From Haloferax gibbonsii ATCC 33959 (GTDB lineage: Archaea > Halobacteriota > Halobacteria > Halobacteriales > Haloferacaceae), in the NCBI RefSeq assembly GCF_000336775.1, contig NZ_AOLJ01000017.1, forward strand, positions 25,751 through 73,175: DNA of 47,425 nt. The letters run 5' to 3'. Of the stretch, positions 2,997 through 12,066 are shown in pieces. How positions within the stretch are numbered: position 1 is the first letter of the stretch; the number at the start of each line of letters is the position of its first letter. The notes beneath the pieces are model-generated. The model made no database searches. It was given only the letters and a program-made list of their open reading frames with translations, and was not told the origin of the DNA. Made by a program: the position numbers and the translations under genes.

Positions 2997-5900
2997 CTAT
3001 TTGGTGATTATTTTTGTTCCGAAGACCTCATCGAACTCCAGAGTTCCGTAGTAGAAGATTCGTAGCCAAACCGTTTGCAGCTTTTCTCTAATTTCATCTT
3101 CATCCATTCTATCAAAGTTGTCGAATTGTTCTCGGAGGAAATCACGCGTTGTTTCCTCAATTTTGACATTAACAATGTCATTCTCCACTTGGTATTCTTT
3201 GATTTCAGGAGGTTGGTCAACATCAAACAGTACTAAGACAGAGAAGTCACGTGAGTTGTCTTTGTAAACTGGGATCGTTGTCGAGTTGGTTTTATAACCG
3301 CCAATGGCGTTTTCGGAATCCCCAAATTCGTCATCAAACCGGGAATCATTGAGAAGGCTACGTCTGGCTCTATATCCCGATATGACTATTGCCTTTACTA
3401 CGTTGTCCTCACAGACCTCTTCCAAGACGTCTAAAAGCTCATCATGAGACTCAATTTTCGTTTCTGAAACACCGTCCTCTAACCAGGTGTCTAAGATAGT
3501 CCGAATATGATTTCTGGCCTTTTGGTCCAAGTAATGGACATATTCAGTAGGCGAATTTTCTATCAAGGCGCCTTTTGGGAACAACTGATTGTATCCTGAA
3601 GCCTCCACATCTATATCCCCACTGTACTCTTCGATACCTAACCAGCCAAGGTCAGAAAACACCTGACGGAGAGCAAACTGGTTTGTGAACTCCTCAATAT
3701 AATTTTCCTCAAAGTTTTCAACCTTCTCAGGGTCTAAGTCCGCCTCAATGATGAAGTCCTCTTCTCTCCGTTCCAATACATCTTCCATATGATGATGGAG
3801 TGCAATGAATAGCTCTTTCCTCTCCTCAAAGCTATCTATGACCTCGTCAGGAATCTCAAATCGTTCCAGGTTTTCTTTTGAAACTCTATTGATTCCTTCT
3901 TCTAAATCAGGATATTCAAGTCGATCAATATCAAGCTGGGCAAGCGGATTGTTGCCTTCAGTTAGATTGTCTGTATCAAACTCTCTTGGGTCTAACAAGA
4001 GCAGACCCATCGCACAGAAGAACTCTTTTATCCAATCATCAACAGCAAGACTACGCATTTGAACTCCCTTGAAAATATCCGAATCATCGGATTCCCATCG
4101 GAAGAAATCTAGACGGGGTTCCTCAAGCAGTCTAAAGTACTCTTCCGTCAACACATCAAAAGAGGAGTAACGGGGTCTGACAGACTCGCTGTACATAGTG
4201 TTGAAAACTTCCTCACTCAACCCCCCCTCCTTGGCTGACTGGTATGCCCAAGCCGCAGCTACGAACCTTGTCCCATCAAACTCTGCTTGCAGTATTTCAA
4301 TCGCCTCCTTCTGGCGCTGTTTATACTCAATCTCTTTTTTAAGACGCTCCCGTTCTTCTTCATTTTCAGATTCCTGGAGCTGCCACTCTAACTCGTGAAT
4401 ATCCATCTCAGGATTGATAGTAAAGAATGCGCCATCGCCAAGATTCCAGGCGTTGTTGAAAGTTGAAGCATCCTCATACTCAACGGAGCCTTGCAAAATG
4501 TTCTCTAATGTATCATAGAAACTGTCGAGGTCGGATACTGCTCCCTCCACTTCATCTATTGATCTAGCACGTTCCAAGGTAGCAACCAACATCGTCTGAA
4601 GGTTCTGGAAAGAAGATAGAAGTCCATGAATCAAATTTTGATTATGAGGATCGCTTGAGGCTAACGCACGATAGTAATATCCATACAACGCTACTGATTT
4701 GTCGAATAAGTGTGATTCTCCTTGACGGTGGTTGTGAAGTGAAATTCTAAATATCTCTCCTCGAATCAGGTTTATCAGTTCAGAGTTGCCGGTCGCTCCT
4801 GCTGCCTCAAATATACGATAGAATTCGCGGAAAATGCGATCTACAAGCGTAGATACTGGCTGAGGAGTACTACCATAATCAGAGATGACTTTTCGGTTCA
4901 GGTTGGTTGCATAATCAAGCAAACTTGTATACAAATTCAGATATGCTTCTAATCCTGCTGGGTTAAGGTCGTTAATTGCTTTTCTGGTGCTCTCACCAAT
5001 CTGAGCCAGATTCCGGTTGACCGATTGGTCACCACTTAGCCACGGGCGCTCATCAACACAGTAAATTGCACTGCTTAGTTCATCTGCAAACGCATCAGGC
5101 AGCTCCAACCAGCGGTTTCTCTCTGAACCGATAAACACGACATCTTGACCAGATTGTAGCTCCCTGCCTAACTCAAAATCAACGTACAGAATCTCATCAT
5201 GAGAAAGCGACTCTTCAGCATGTTCGCAGGCTCGTCGTAGCTTTTCAAGATTGATGTCAGAGATGTACCCATTCAAATCCAGTTCGTCTGCGGTGAATAC
5301 ACGTCCCTCTCTGTTTCGACCAACTACCACGAAATCAGGCAGACTGTCTGCGAGGATTGATTGAGAAATACTTTTTCGCTCACCATCTCGGAGCTGTAAC
5401 TTGATCCCATGGCGAACCTGATCAAGGGTCATCTCGTCAAGTGGGTCGGAGAAAACCAACTTGGCAACTCGGTAGTATACGTACGCAATTCCGGTTACAG
5501 TGCCTGCAAACAGGAAGAAAGTGACATCAACAAAAATTGGATTGATATTTTCGGGAGCATGATAGAAGTAAAGGTATGAGACCACTCCAGACGATAAGAG
5601 CGAGAAGTAAATCACCGGCATTGCTCTTGAGGAAGCTAAAAACTCCTCAATTACTCCTTTACGGTACCGACTGCGATACACCTGGTCAAGAAGAAATATC
5701 AGAACAATAAAGCTGAGACTAGTAATCGTCAACTGGGCCTGCCAACCTGTTTCAATCGAACCTGTTTGTATCAATCCACCAAATGGTATAGTCAAATACG
5801 CCAATGAGAATGAGACTAGTATGCCAAGTGGGAGCACCCAAAGAATGCTCCAATGAGTGAGTAGTGACCTCTTACTTCGGAAAAAGTAGTAAAGGAACCA

Positions 5901-6101
5901 ACGGTAGCCATTTGAATCAATTTCTCTTCGGAACGTCTTCCAACGTAGAGATTTTTTAGGATACAAGATCCAAGGGTTCCTGTCGTAGAATTTCCGGAGA
6001 GAAGGTCGAATCAGAAAGTAGAGAACTAGGAGTGCAAAACCTGTGACTACAATTACTGCCCCGATAGTCAACAAAGGTTCAATACTCCAACTTTCAGGCA
6101 T
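2997..6101 (-). CDS. large membrane protein, N-terminal 5-TM region and ~800-residue cytoplasmic part
   Basis: The 1034-residue protein has probable membrane helices at about 9-31, 84-106, 123-140, 162-180 and 188-209. A long soluble region follows, with many acidic helices and a charged coiled-coil stretch near residues 570-600. The membrane part loosely recalls DUF2254-like predicted membrane proteins. No catalytic motif was recognised. The gene is strikingly A+T-rich relative to the chromosome. It lies 95 bases downstream of the QueC-like gene on the same strand but has its own TATA-like element placing transcription start almost at the ATG. It may be an effector or sensor of the neighbouring system or an independent defence gene. 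Confidence 0.8.
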   Translation of the reverse strand: MPESWSIEPLLTIGAVIVVTGFALLVLYFLIRPSLRKFYDRNPWILYPKKSLRWKTFRREIDSNGYRWFLYYFFRSKRSLLTHWSILWVLPLGILVSFSLAYLTIPFGGLIQTGSIETGWQAQLTITSLSFIVLIFLLDQVYRSRYRKGVIEEFLASSRAMPVIYFSLLSSGVVSYLYFYHAPENINPIFVDVTFFLFAGTVTGIAYVYYRVAKLVFSDPLDEMTLDQVRHGIKLQLRDGERKSISQSILADSLPDFVVVGRNREGRVFTADELDLNGYISDINLEKLRRACEHAEESLSHDEILYVDFELGRELQSGQDVVFIGSERNRWLELPDAFADELSSAIYCVDERPWLSGDQSVNRNLAQIGESTRKAINDLNPAGLEAYLNLYTSLLDYATNLNRKVISDYGSTPQPVSTLVDRIFREFYRIFEAAGATGNSELINLIRGEIFRISLHNHRQGESHLFDKSVALYGYYYRALASSDPHNQNLIHGLLSSFQNLQTMLVATLERARSIDEVEGAVSDLDSFYDTLENILQGSVEYEDASTFNNAWNLGDGAFFTINPEMDIHELEWQLQESENEEERERLKKEIEYKQRQKEAIEILQAEFDGTRFVAAAWAYQSAKEGGLSEEVFNTMYSESVRPRYSSFDVLTEEYFRLLEEPRLDFFRWESDDSDIFKGVQMRSLAVDDWIKEFFCAMGLLLLDPREFDTDNLTEGNNPLAQLDIDRLEYPDLEEGINRVSKENLERFEIPDEVIDSFEERKELFIALHHHMEDVLERREEDFIIEADLDPEKVENFEENYIEEFTNQFALRQVFSDLGWLGIEEYSGDIDVEASGYNQLFPKGALIENSPTEYVHYLDQKARNHIRTILDTWLEDGVSETKIESHDELLDVLEEVCEDNVVKAIVISGYRARRSLLNDSRFDDEFGDSENAIGGYKTNSTTIPVYKDNSRDFSVLVLFDVDQPPEIKEYQVENDIVNVKIEETTRDFLREQFDNFDRMDEDEIREKLQTVWLRIFYYGTLEFDEVFGTKIITK

Positions 6102-6196: not shown

Positions 6197-7597
6197 CTAT
6201 CTGTTGTCTATTGGTTTTGCTGGGAGGAGGTGTCGGATTGATTCGTTTTGTTCGTATGCTGTGGATAGTGCTTGTGTGAAGTTTTCTGCGAACGTGTGGT
6301 GCTGTTCGTAGATTGGTTTGCTGAGTAGGTCTGGGTATTCATCCGCTAGTTCTCGTGGGGTTTCTTCTAGGATGCGTCTGCAGAAGTATGCGATTTCGGT
6401 GATGCCTTTGAAGAAGATCTCCGGTGTGTTTGCGGAGGTGTTTGTGATTTCGGTGACTTCTTTGTTGAAATCTTGGTTGGCGAAATCAGAGTCCAGAAGG
6501 GGGTCGTATTTGGATAGGTTCTTGATCGGGATTTTGTGCTCGCTTGCGATTATCCCGGTGTTACGGATGATGCAGGGTACACAGAAGCCGCAATTCTCTC
6601 CGCCGAACCGGGCGGTGTGTGGGCAAGAGACTGTTTTTGGAATGATTTCTGTGTCTTCGATTTCGTTTACGATCTCGGTCTTGGTTCTGTTTTCAAACGG
6701 GTTTTCTACTTGTATTGGTTTGTCGAGTGCCAGTTCCAGTATTTTGTTGAAGTAGGTGAGGAACAGCGGGGATACTGTTCGTGTAGTCATCCATCCGTCT
6801 GAGAGGATTAGGAATCTGGCCATGATTCCGTTCTCAAAGCACTGGACTTTGGTTATGTCTTGTGCTGAGGCGGCTGCTACTGCGAAGCTAAGGTGTAAGA
6901 GACCGCGTGAGAACTGGGTTGATTCTCCCCGTCCAGTGTATTTGGTTCGGTAGGTTTGGTGTGTTACTCCGATTTCGTCTGCTATTTTCTCTGCTTTAGA
7001 TCCGATGCCGTGGCCGTAGTTTACTGTGACGTGGTCGGATTCTATGCCTCGTGAGAGGTTGTAGTAGATTCCTCCAGTGCTGTCCAGGCCGTCGGATAGT
7101 AGACTGATGGCCTCGTTCTCGCTGTGGGTTGTGGAGGTCTGGATTTCTCTCTGGGTTTCGACCTTTTGGAGGTCATATTCGATGATGTCGCGGGTCATGT
7201 GGGAGACCATCTCAGAGTAGAGCTCTTCCATCTCCGTGGTGGCCATCTCAGCAGAGAGAACCGAGATTTGTAGCTTGATGTTCCTTGTTTCAAGTCTGCT
7301 GTCGTCGACGTCGTCTTGGATATCGATGTCTCTGGATACTGCTTTGTCTGCTGCAAAAGTCGCGACCGCGATCTCAACGATGTCTAAAATTACGTTTGGG
7401 ACTTCACCGTCAAAGGCATCGTCTACAAGAGAGTGGTCGTATTTGATGAATTCGTCTGAGCCTGCAGGTTTTCTTGAGGCGTAAGGAATGATTTCGATGA
7501 TTTGGTCGAAGTCGGTCTCGTCAGATTCTCTTATTTCGTTGGAGATCCGGTCCTGGAATTCTGGGTGCCGCGATACGAAGAATTTGTTCGTGGTCAT
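6197..7597 (-). CDS. QueC-like PP-loop protein (QatC/Cap9-like), candidate protein deazaguanylase
   Basis: The 466-residue protein is about twice the length of housekeeping QueC. Residues 168-174 read SDGLDST, the PP-loop (canonical SGGxDS) that binds ATP. C325, C336, C339 and C342 form a QueC-type zinc site (CGFCVPC core). Between them a segment with ENG and TRTVSP matches the 7-deazaguanine-binding part of long QueC relatives. Extra regions of ~165 residues before and ~110 after the core suggest a specialised paralog. In type IV CBASS, the QueC relative Cap9 attaches a deazaguanine to a protein N-terminus, and QatC works with QatB. The ATG at 7597 overlaps the upstream stop (ATGA) and has a GGAGG site 7 bases before it, so I prefer it to the start 13 codons earlier. 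The second Gly of the PP-loop is Asp. Confidence 0.88.
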   Translation of the reverse strand: MTTNKFFVSRHPEFQDRISNEIRESDETDFDQIIEIIPYASRKPAGSDEFIKYDHSLVDDAFDGEVPNVILDIVEIAVATFAADKAVSRDIDIQDDVDDSRLETRNIKLQISVLSAEMATTEMEELYSEMVSHMTRDIIEYDLQKVETQREIQTSTTHSENEAISLLSDGLDSTGGIYYNLSRGIESDHVTVNYGHGIGSKAEKIADEIGVTHQTYRTKYTGRGESTQFSRGLLHLSFAVAAASAQDITKVQCFENGIMARFLILSDGWMTTRTVSPLFLTYFNKILELALDKPIQVENPFENRTKTEIVNEIEDTEIIPKTVSCPHTARFGGENCGFCVPCIIRNTGIIASEHKIPIKNLSKYDPLLDSDFANQDFNKEVTEITNTSANTPEIFFKGITEIAYFCRRILEETPRELADEYPDLLSKPIYEQHHTFAENFTQALSTAYEQNESIRHLLPAKPIDNR

Positions 7598-8019
7598 TCT
7601 AACTCCTCCAGGAATTCTTCGAGTTGGGTTTCCCACTCTCCGAATTTGTCGTCGATGGCTTCCTCAACTCGTTCTTCGACGTCTTCGTCTTCTAATCGTT
7701 GCAGGTCCCCGGATTCGATGACTTCCGAGACGACGTCGTCAGATTTCAGGTATTCAACTAGGTCTCTGGCCCAGTATTCACACCGCTCAAGCATTGCCTC
7801 GCGTTGGTTTTTCAGGAGCTGGTCTCCGTTGGTGCTAAGGTGGAGTTGTGTCCCGATATCGGAGACCTCGTCATCGTCTGATTTCAGCTCCTGCATTATG
7901 AATCGGAACAGGAATTGGCGGAAGTAGAGTACGAAGAGGCCTTCTGTGCCGTGTTGTTCAATGAATTCTTGGATGTTCTCTTCTGCCTCTTCTGAGTCGA
8001 CGAATGGGTTTTCAGTCAT
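7594..8019 (-). CDS. acidic all-helical protein of the QueC-like operon
   Basis: The 141-residue, strongly acidic protein appears wholly helical. It has an aromatic-rich helix near residues 28-44 (LYFRQFLFRFIMQEL) and a coiled-coil-like acidic C-terminus. It overlaps the preceding gene by 8 bases and the following one by 4 (ATGA), so it is made from the same mRNA. It could be a scaffold or the C-terminal half of a split QatB-like partner for the QueC-like enzyme. That is inference from size, order and helix content; I recognise no named family. Confidence 0.75.
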   Translation of the reverse strand: MTENPFVDSEEAEENIQEFIEQHGTEGLFVLYFRQFLFRFIMQELKSDDDEVSDIGTQLHLSTNGDQLLKNQREAMLERCEYWARDLVEYLKSDDVVSEVIESGDLQRLEDEDVEERVEEAIDDKFGEWETQLEEFLEELE

Positions 8020-8491
8020 CTTTTTTCGAACCTCCGTCCATCAAGGCGTCTGCTCCGTTGGAAATGACTGCGCCCAGCGTGTCTTTGGCTGCTTGTTCAG
8101 ATGGTGCTCCGAAGTTGTTGTTGACCTCCTCAACTCCACGTCCTACGGTGTCGTTTTCTGCAGCGACGGAGACTGCTTGTTGTGAAGTATTTACGATCCC
8201 TCCTGCAGTGTGCCCAGCGATCTCGCTTTGTATCACGCTCTTTCCAGTTGCCTGAAGACCTGCCTGGAGTCCGTCTTGACTGGTTGTTTGAACGAATGTG
8301 TTCGTGTGTTTGAGATATGAGTAGGTGGTGACCTTTGCCGGGCCATTTGGTTGAACTGCCAATGCACCGGTCACAGCAATATCAACTGCAATCCTTGTTT
8401 TATCCGATTCTAAGGCCTGATTCATTCCTCTCTTTGCGTCCTGATACCCGAGACCAGAAGCAGCCGACGACGAAGCAGAAGCACTTCCCAT
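8012..8491 (-). CDS. small Met-Gly-starting protein, candidate modification substrate of the QueC-like enzyme
   Basis: The 159-residue protein begins MGSASASSSAASGLGY, a flexible Gly/Ser/Ala tail with glycine at position 2. Methionine removal would expose an N-terminal glycine. The middle is helical with Ala/Gly/Thr-rich stretches (residues 37-48, 95-115) and the end is SKKDD. QatB in Qat systems also begins Met-Gly with a Ser-rich tail and is served by a QueC-like protein. No CD-NTase, QatA or other known partner is encoded here. The gene is first in the operon. Its TATA-like element at 8521-8530 implies a very short leader, fixing the ATG at 8491 as the start. Confidence 0.75.
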   Translation of the reverse strand: MGSASASSSAASGLGYQDAKRGMNQALESDKTRIAVDIAVTGALAVQPNGPAKVTTYSYLKHTNTFVQTTSQDGLQAGLQATGKSVIQSEIAGHTAGGIVNTSQQAVSVAAENDTVGRGVEEVNNNFGAPSEQAAKDTLGAVISNGADALMDGGSKKDD

Positions 8492-8520: not shown

Positions 8521-8530
8521 CATAAAAATC
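8521..8530 (-). promoter_or_regulatory. TATA-like box of the QueC-like operon
   Basis: GATTTTTATG on the minus strand lies ~30-39 bases before the ATG at 8491, consistent with a near-leaderless operon mRNA. It faces the divergent promoter of the TraB-like gene in the same 128-base gap. Confidence 0.45.
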
Positions 8531-8619: not shown

Positions 8620-9357
8620 ATGTCTGATGTTGTTTTGAAGGGCGAGTTGCACACCAGTATGGGTGATTTAGAAGAGGAGAAAGAATTAGTGAAAGAAGGT
8701 TTTGATACGCTTGTTTTGGAGGGTCAGGCATCCGAGTCGGAGTACGGTTGGAGTGATGGTTGGTTCCAGATCTCGATTTCGGCTTTGTTCTGGATAATCG
8801 GTCGTGTCTATGTGTCAAAAGATATTCTACGAGATTTAGCCGAAGTTCAGGAGACAGGCCTTGTCTTTACGCGAGATGCTGATTCAGATCTTTTAGAGAA
8901 TACTCCGTTTTTTATGCAGGTGTTTTCGGCGCTTGTGTTCTACACTTTGGTCCCGGGGAGTGTTGCAGCAGGGATTATATTTCCAAAGCTTTGGGGTGCA
9001 GTGATTCTCTTCTGTGGATTTGCACTTCCAGTGCTTGGAATCAGGATATACAATACCCAGAGGTCGAAGGGAGACAAGAACCGGGATAAGATAATCGCGG
9101 ACAAGATCGCTGATGCCGCCGAAGAAGGGGATAGTGTGTTAGCAATCGTTGGTGAGAGCCATTCTGAGGGCGTAAAGAAACATTTACCCGACAGTATTGA
9201 TCCAGATGTGCGTCCACCCGCATACAGTAGATTATCAAAACCTCATGTGAAAGAAGTAGCATTCCCTTTCTTCGAGATGATACTAGTCTTGTATTCGCTG
9301 TTCTTAGTGGTCTCTTCAGTAATGCTAAGGCTGGCTCAATTCGCACCTCAACTATAG
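8620..9357 (+). CDS. TraB/Tiki-superfamily-like membrane protein
   Basis: The 245-residue protein has two copies of the Gly-Glu-x-His signature of the TraB/Tiki/EreA-ChaN superfamily. The first is GELHTS (residues 8-13) followed by FDTLVLEGQ; the second is VGESHSEGV (near residue 175). Hydrophobic segments lie near 47-60, 98-145 (probably two helices) and 220-240, so it is membrane-bound. Superfamily members include metal-dependent proteases and proteins that shut down peptide pheromone signalling. It is shorter than most archaeal TraB proteins and diverges from the QueC-like operon across 128 bases. A role as signal, effector or protease in the island is possible but not shown. Confidence 0.7.
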   Translation: MSDVVLKGELHTSMGDLEEEKELVKEGFDTLVLEGQASESEYGWSDGWFQISISALFWIIGRVYVSKDILRDLAEVQETGLVFTRDADSDLLENTPFFMQVFSALVFYTLVPGSVAAGIIFPKLWGAVILFCGFALPVLGIRIYNTQRSKGDKNRDKIIADKIADAAEEGDSVLAIVGESHSEGVKKHLPDSIDPDVRPPAYSRLSKPHVKEVAFPFFEMILVLYSLFLVVSSVMLRLAQFAPQL

Positions 9358-11958: not shown

Positions 11959-12066
11959 CATGGAGCGGACTGCTTTGAGTGCCGAGGCCACTTCTCAGAA
12001 GGTCCGACGGTGGAGGAGACCGTCGAGTCCGAGCGGCTTGACCGGGGTTATTGTGAGTCGAAGTAG
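11959..12066 (+). pseudogene. 3' remnant of a chromosomal zinc-finger-like gene at the element edge
   Basis: Exactly where composition turns G+C-rich, an open frame encodes GADCFECRGHF followed by an acidic helix (TVEETVESERLD) and a late cysteine (RGYCESK), ending in TAG. Codon use and acidity are chromosomal, but the frame runs back into A+T-rich element sequence. The only in-frame ATG (11,935) lies there and would add eight unrelated residues. I read this as the tail of a gene cut by integration, though a 43-residue hybrid protein is possible. Its end overlaps the convergent glycosyltransferase gene by 19 bases. Confidence 0.45.

Follow-up and report, generated by a model that had tools for sequence, protein, structure and literature searches.

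Three overlapping genes, P1, P2 and P3, carried on an integrative element of a haloarchaeal genome probably form a minimal, mobile, Qat-like (QatBC-like) antiviral module of archaea, with P1 being modified by P3 at its N-terminal glycine. A probability of about 0.6 was assigned to this reading. As judged by profile matches, conserved residues and phylogeny, P3 represents a lineage sister to bacterial QatC and is not a housekeeping QueC. From the comparisons described below we infer that the three proteins form a complex, that P1 is modified at its N-terminus and that the trio acts in defence.

Organization of the gene trio

The window is the whole stretch of DNA that was analysed, 47,425 nucleotides corresponding to bases 25751-73175 of contig 17 (NZ_AOLJ01000017.1) of a 4.06 Mb haloarchaeal genome. 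The initial annotation had described three overlapping minus-strand genes encoding proteins of 159, 141 and 466 amino acids, and these open reading frames were located at the following window coordinates.

8521..8528, minus strand: TATA-like box TTTTTATG, about 33 nt 5' of the P1 ATG; putative function
8012..8491, minus strand: P1, 159 amino acids, start MGSASASSS, Gly2 codon at 8486-8488; presumed QatB-like substrate
8012..8019, minus strand: overlap of P1 and P2, 8 nt
7594..8019, minus strand: P2, 141 amino acids, acidic (pI 4.1) and helical; conserved middle gene
7594..7597, minus strand: overlap of P2 and P3, 4 nt, ATGA
6197..7597, minus strand: P3, 466 amino acids, QatC-type QueC-family enzyme, from HMM matches and tree
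7079..7096, minus strand: P-loop SDGLDS of P3, residues 168-173, aligned with SGGLDS of QatC
6776..6784, minus strand: Thr-Arg-Thr of P3, residues 272-274, at the positions of T278/T280 in Pseudomonas aeruginosa QatC
6572..6625, minus strand: Cys4 zinc site of P3, residues C325, C336, C339 and C342

The overlaps of 8 and 4 nt mean that P1, P2 and P3 are almost certainly co-translated. Two starts are available for P3, the ATG that overlaps P2, giving 466 residues, and an upstream GTG, giving 479. P2 is presumed to be a scaffold or the second half of a QatB-like unit. The position of the TATA-like box appears to fit a leaderless haloarchaeal transcript, which would make the Met-Gly start of P1 credible. 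Similar boxes were observed upstream of P1 at other module loci, TTATTTATG at L022 and L054 and ACTATTTATG at L020, and boxes of the TATTTATG type precede P1 at all three of these loci.

The host mobile element

The GC content of the region from about 5,800 to about 37,740 of the contig is 42-53% (approximately 47%), compared with 65-70% (approximately 67%) outside it, and the 16-bp direct repeat TGAGTGCCGAGGCCAC was found at both ends, at contig positions 5792 and 37726 (window 11976). These repeats and the low GC, taken with a XerA-type recombinase and a VirD4-like ATPase gene within the same region, identify an integrative element of about 32 kb, consistent with the earlier placement of the operon inside a mobile element. 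The flanking features that lie within the window are as follows.

2997..6101, minus strand: membrane-anchored protein of 1034 amino acids, family not recognised, 95 bp downstream of P3
8620..9357, plus strand: TraB/ChaN-like membrane protein, divergent neighbour of P1
10458..11390, minus strand: XerA-type tyrosine recombinase; recombinase of the element
11976..11991, no strand: right element end, 16-bp direct repeat TGAGTGCCGAGGCCAC; the other copy, at contig position 5792, lies outside the window

The 1034-residue gene was considered as a fourth member of the module and rejected, as it was seen at no other module locus. Its one close homologue (45% identical) comes from a Natronosalvus plasmid, where it is not accompanied by the module and has HTH/PemK genes as well as a helicase-methyltransferase pair in its vicinity. 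The TraB/ChaN-like gene adjoins the module in two separate loci (window 8620-9357 and L022 10566-11300), and relatives of its product occur on other haloarchaeal plasmids. A minus-strand open reading frame outside the window, at contig positions 9587-11143, begins with MMLALSLIHISERAMCIRDS. This resembles transposase-adapter sequence that was not removed during assembly, and contig 17 may therefore be misjoined near this position.

P3 belongs to the QatC lineage

P3 was compared with QatC and QueC using profile searches, alignment and a phylogenetic tree. QatC models and the solved QatC proteins 9vlk and 9zee were matched at E values of approximately 1e-29 to 1e-34, including the NCBIfam equivalog NF041925 (118.5 bits, E 3.2e-34), the PADLOC QatC model (E 9.5e-31) and PDB entry 9vlk (E 5.8e-31), whereas the NCBIfam QueC model gave a much weaker 39.4 bits. 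The NF041925 score is far below the curated cut-off of 280 bits, and P3 is therefore described as a sister lineage rather than a certified QatC. The alignment to QatC models covers residues 68-354 and begins, at about residue 68, inside an N-terminal extension that QatC and P3 contain and that Cap9 and QueC lack, and profile-profile comparison with QatC gave an E value of 2.5e-44 over 338 columns.

The PP-loop and Cys4 site noted initially were both present, as S168-D-G-L-D-S173 and C325, C336, C339 and C342. Of the QatC residues essential for defence (PMC13279940), P3 keeps the P-loop Ser168 and Ser173 and the T272-R-T274 pair, which is invariant among haloarchaeal P3 proteins. Alignment with QatC showed that R231, the adenine-contacting arginine, and the ENG and NPF....TK motifs are also kept. 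One difference that counts against the proposed reading of the module is that in the clade of the window Asp replaces the first Gly of the QatC SGG.

The tree was constructed with bacterial QatC and eight haloarchaeal QueC proteins, the host's own and seven others. The archaeal P3 proteins joined bacterial QatC, with the QueC proteins set apart by a branch of 4.5 with a support of 100, so the clustering with housekeeping QueC that had been named initially as a contrary outcome was not observed. Three groups were resolved, methanogen, haloarchaeal and bacterial QatC, the order of branching among them being unsure in this quick search with long branches. The host QueC is encoded separately in a queD-queE-queC operon, where queD and queC were called by Pfam and queE by its radical-SAM domain and LFASLQGEG motif. 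P3 and housekeeping QueC share the QueC-family PP-loop core and zinc site; however, P3 is twice as long and lacks the YPDC and VPxRN motifs, the YPDC site being present in the host's own QueC. The P3 homologue of Natrinema sp. DC36 (L034 10001-11440) is publicly named 7-cyano-7-deazaguanine synthase, probably a wrong call of function.

Distribution and conservation of the Met-Gly start

The module was identified in 13 of 391 Halobacteria genomes, in one of these only as a fragment, and in two further genomes from the species collection, Halosimplex salinum and Halapricum sp. CBA1109. Among the 391 genomes every strong QatC match corresponded to this module and none reached the QatC cut-off. 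The genes common to all module loci are only P1, P2 and P3. A search for the three-gene order in other haloarchaea had been suggested as a check, and the order P1-P2-P3 was found at every haloarchaeal locus with enough contig to read through, with P2 truncated in the copy of Natrinema salinisoli, and an equivalent trio, its P1 and P2 diverged beyond recognition, recurred in three methanogens. Such recurrence speaks against a chance arrangement.

The haloarchaeal copies form two clades that are approximately 30% identical to each other. Clade A contains the window, Natrinema sp. DC36 (on two plasmids), Halosimplex, Halorhabdus and others, and clade B contains Halolamina, Halobiforma, Natrinema salinisoli, Haloarcula vallismortis, Halapricum and others. 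The near identity of clade B copies across different families indicates recent transfer, and the module was found on both integrative elements and plasmids. The equivalent trio of the three methanogen-type genomes, a class deduced from relatedness, comprises a small Met-Gly gene, a small helical gene and a QatC-like gene, the latter preceded by a helical gene of about 95 codons and a gene of about 150 codons whose product starts MGSQNRS or MGGRKSY. Profile comparison of the methanogen small proteins with haloarchaeal P1 gave no significant similarity, and since the two versions differ greatly their functions may differ, which counts against the proposed reading. Relatives of P3 or P1 were not found on viral contigs, and in phage records the only matches were two to Listeria phage QatC.

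At all readable loci the haloarchaeal P1 homologues start MG[ST]A[ST]. The N-termini observed across the loci were MGSAS, MGSAT, MGTAT, MGSQN and MGGRK, the QatB-type MGTS not being among them. Gly occupies position 2 in 11% of the neighbouring open reading frames of the same loci; P1 always begins Met-Gly-Ser, Met-Gly-Thr or Met-Gly-Gly. The description of P1 as a Met-Gly partner was thus confirmed, the start being held while the remainder diverges, and this retention in a protein that is otherwise rewritten is the most forceful argument from sequence for the importance of the N-terminal glycine.

Comparison with Qat

QatA is a KAP-family NTPase. Searches with tblastn gave no match to QatA beside any module locus and no match to QatD, a TatD nuclease, at any module locus, with all bacterial controls positive for both. 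QatB, which is more variable and was found in most bacterial controls, likewise gave no match at the module loci, and neither QatB nor QatD was found in the whole 32 kb element. The initial annotation had stated that CD-NTase, Cap10, QatA and QatD are all absent. This stood for the window and for the module loci, the clade B cyclases described below being treated as neighbours, but has to be softened for the element as a whole, where a KAP-like NTPase gene at contig positions 11109-12860, outside the window and about 20 kb from the module, encodes a protein that resembles QatA in the Walker region only.

In the P. aeruginosa Qat system QatB associates with QatC in a 1:1 complex and the pair is sufficient for defence against some phages, and this defence requires the P-loop of QatC, its Thr pair T278/T280 and Gly2 of QatB (PMC13279940). 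The claim that the operon matches no named system was consequently too strong, because P3 belongs to a sister lineage of QatC and, in bacteria, QatB together with QatC is sufficient for defence (PMC13279940). The module shares with Qat a QatC-type enzyme with an N-terminal extension, P-loop, Thr-x-Thr and Cys4 site, an overlapping upstream partner gene starting Met-Gly-Ser/Thr, and a location on mobile elements in defence islands. It differs in its archaeal hosts, in having no QatA or QatD at any locus, and in that the place of QatB is taken by two small proteins whose homology to QatB is not established. Two features of P1 count against the proposed reading: its tail is short, the first predicted helix beginning after about 13 residues in a low-confidence model, and it lacks the Pro16/Trp18 that QatB needs.

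One explanation for the two small proteins is that they are literally a split QatB, P1 providing the N-terminal tail and first helices and P2 the C-terminal QatC-binding helices. P1 and P2 total about 300 residues, compared with 240-300 for QatB, and when both were aligned by hhalign to 17 bacterial QatB proteins, with column-shuffled and reversed controls, the best alignments were collinear (P1 1-41 with QatB 1-81, P2 16-134 with QatB 164-272). The scores of 17.5 and 21.3 exceeded all shuffles; however, they were close to those of the reversed control (15.2 and 18.1), and for this reason a split QatB is not claimed. In addition, the P1 alignment moved when settings were changed, no fused P1-P2 was found, and Foldseek returned no QatB match for P2 from a library that may not contain QatB. 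A split QatB is accordingly regarded as rather unlikely. The AlphaFold2 model of P2 was all helical with a pLDDT of 79, and Foldseek gave no PDB fold match under E 0.001 and no solved relative; matches of P2 to LeoA and DUF445 were attributed to acidic coiled-coil similarity and discounted. The model of P1, with a pLDDT of 37, was unusable.

Comparison with type IV CBASS and identity of the proposed adduct

In type IV CBASS, Cap9 joins 7-carboxy-7-deazaguanine to the N-terminal glycine of the cyclase (PMC11996544; PMC13279940). The module resembles this system in placing a QueC-family protein next to a Met-Gly protein. P3, however, greatly exceeds Cap9 in size and its active-site residues are those of QatC, no Cap10 was noticed, and the cyclase that neighbours four clade B modules lacks a Met-Gly start and is partnered by an effector of its own. 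A profile search of the scanned genes of the window's element identified no CD-NTase with a Met-Gly start, no Cap9 and no Cap10.

It is unlikely that P3 attaches 7-carboxy-7-deazaguanine to Gly2 of P1 exactly as in type IV CBASS. The QueC-family core and P-loop of P3, the conserved Gly2 of P1 and the proposal of such a reaction for QatC (PMC13329287) are consistent with this chemistry, and the precursor could be supplied by the host through queD-queE; the availability of a 7-deazaguanine precursor had been noted initially and agrees with the queD-queE-queC genes. Against it, the Tyr/Asp with which Cap9 and QueC bind the base is replaced in P3 by the Thr pair of QatC, and QatC was obtained with no bound CDG, its activity could not be reconstituted and a possibly distinct substrate was suggested (PMC13279940). 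The term deazaguanylation in the initial annotation was thus not sustained as worded, since the Tyr/Asp that reads 7-carboxy-7-deazaguanine is replaced, and QatC-type enzymes without base-recognition residues leave the deazaguanine identity of the adduct uncertain. A further and doubtful proposal is that QueC-derived immunity has a distinct branch in archaea, represented by the trio, with a fast-evolving substrate keeping only its N-terminal glycine, a dedicated scaffold, no NTPase or nuclease and an adduct other than deazaguanine.

Genomic neighbourhoods

The module usually has known defence genes as neighbours, CBASS, TIR, restriction and Iet-like genes among them. A CBASS cyclase was identified in four clade B loci, with a Cap15 effector where the contig continues; the L027 contig extends no further than the first cyclase. 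Two convergent pairs of cyclase and Cap15-type effector with two transmembrane segments were observed at each of L026 (4466-7559), L028 (10668-13761) and L057 (9457-12550). These pairs follow the clade B module immediately, at a distance of about 60 bp from the end of P3, and both cyclases of L026 were matched by PADLOC at E < 1e-80. The adjacent cyclase was rejected as a module member and treated as a neighbour, because only four clade B loci, all closely related, have it and it is paired with its own Cap15-type effector, although a tie between Qat-like and CBASS immunity is possible. Immediately upstream of clade B modules, at L026 (10132-11061), L027 (15090-16019), L028 (7166-8095) and L029 (10772-11749), lies a divergent TFIIB paralogue, which is possibly the module's own transcription factor.

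Other defence neighbours were an Mrr nuclease and a Thoeris-type ThsB TIR protein (L025), Dsr1 (L036), TmtA (L057), Iet-like AAA ATPases (L034 and L054), type I restriction (L084) and a weak Avs1b match (L022). The defence partners vary from locus to locus, as expected of an independent cassette, and on gene content the module usually sits in defence islands. The two related methanogen loci L083 and L091, inspection of which revealed ordinary chromosomal neighbours and no defence genes, count against the antiviral reading.

The location of the module on integrative elements and plasmids, and of several clade A loci close to the element's VirD4-like and/or wHTH genes, could also be explained if the trio serves the mobile element in transfer, maintenance or exclusion of other elements and is not antiviral. 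This is improbable given that the contexts vary widely, that most loci contain known defence genes, that conjugation genes were not noticed near the methanogen loci and that P3 is of QatC descent. Still less probable is a role of P3 in maturing P1 as a toxin active on membranes or as a protein of bacteriocin type, for which P2 would serve as the immunity protein or as a chaperone. P1 is rich in Gly and Ala, and in two methanogens it has a strongly hydrophobic stretch (Kyte-Doolittle about 2.4 over 19 residues), but haloarchaeal P1 has no membrane-like stretch (Kyte-Doolittle maximum 1.2) and the trio has no conserved neighbour for secretion or export. It is scarcely credible that P3 is a second QueC supplying tRNA or DNA modification with preQ0 or a similar base, for despite its family membership and the NCBI name of a homologue it lacks the YPDC site, branches apart from QueC and has no transglycosylase or Dpd match among scanned neighbours, and Escherichia coli QatC cannot replace QueC (PMC13329287).

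Proposed mechanism and significance

In the preferred reading, that of a Qat-like antiviral module, P3 would act as an ATP-dependent ligase of the QatC lineage. The initiator Met of P1 would be removed and its flexible N-terminus would enter the active site of P3, which would activate a carboxylate substrate with ATP and couple it to the Gly2 amine. This substrate may be 7-carboxy-7-deazaguanine made by the host or a different acid, and the identity of the adduct is the least certain part of the mechanism. P2, co-translated with P1 and P3, would hold P1 on P3 and is probably a scaffold. The modified P1 or P1-P2 complex would then be the immune-active species, as is thought for QatB in bacteria. 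Given its descent and its residues, P3 would be expected to act as QatC does, with P1 supplying the glycine.

No description of an archaeal Qat or of a three-gene Qat was found in the literature searched; archaeal QueC clusters are mentioned but left unanalysed in PMC13329287. Homologues are currently named 7-cyano-7-deazaguanine synthase or hypothetical protein, and with QatA and QatD missing the module would be overlooked by surveys demanding all four Qat genes. The chemistry of QatC and the roles of QatA and QatD are open questions in the structural work of 2026. The archaeal loci retain the QatC enzyme and two small partners, QatA and QatD having been dropped or never present, and trios of this composition occur at many loci across haloarchaea and methanogens. 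The module would thus extend QueC-derived immunity from bacteria to archaea, and may offer a compact system for finding the glycine adduct and testing how the modification becomes immunity.
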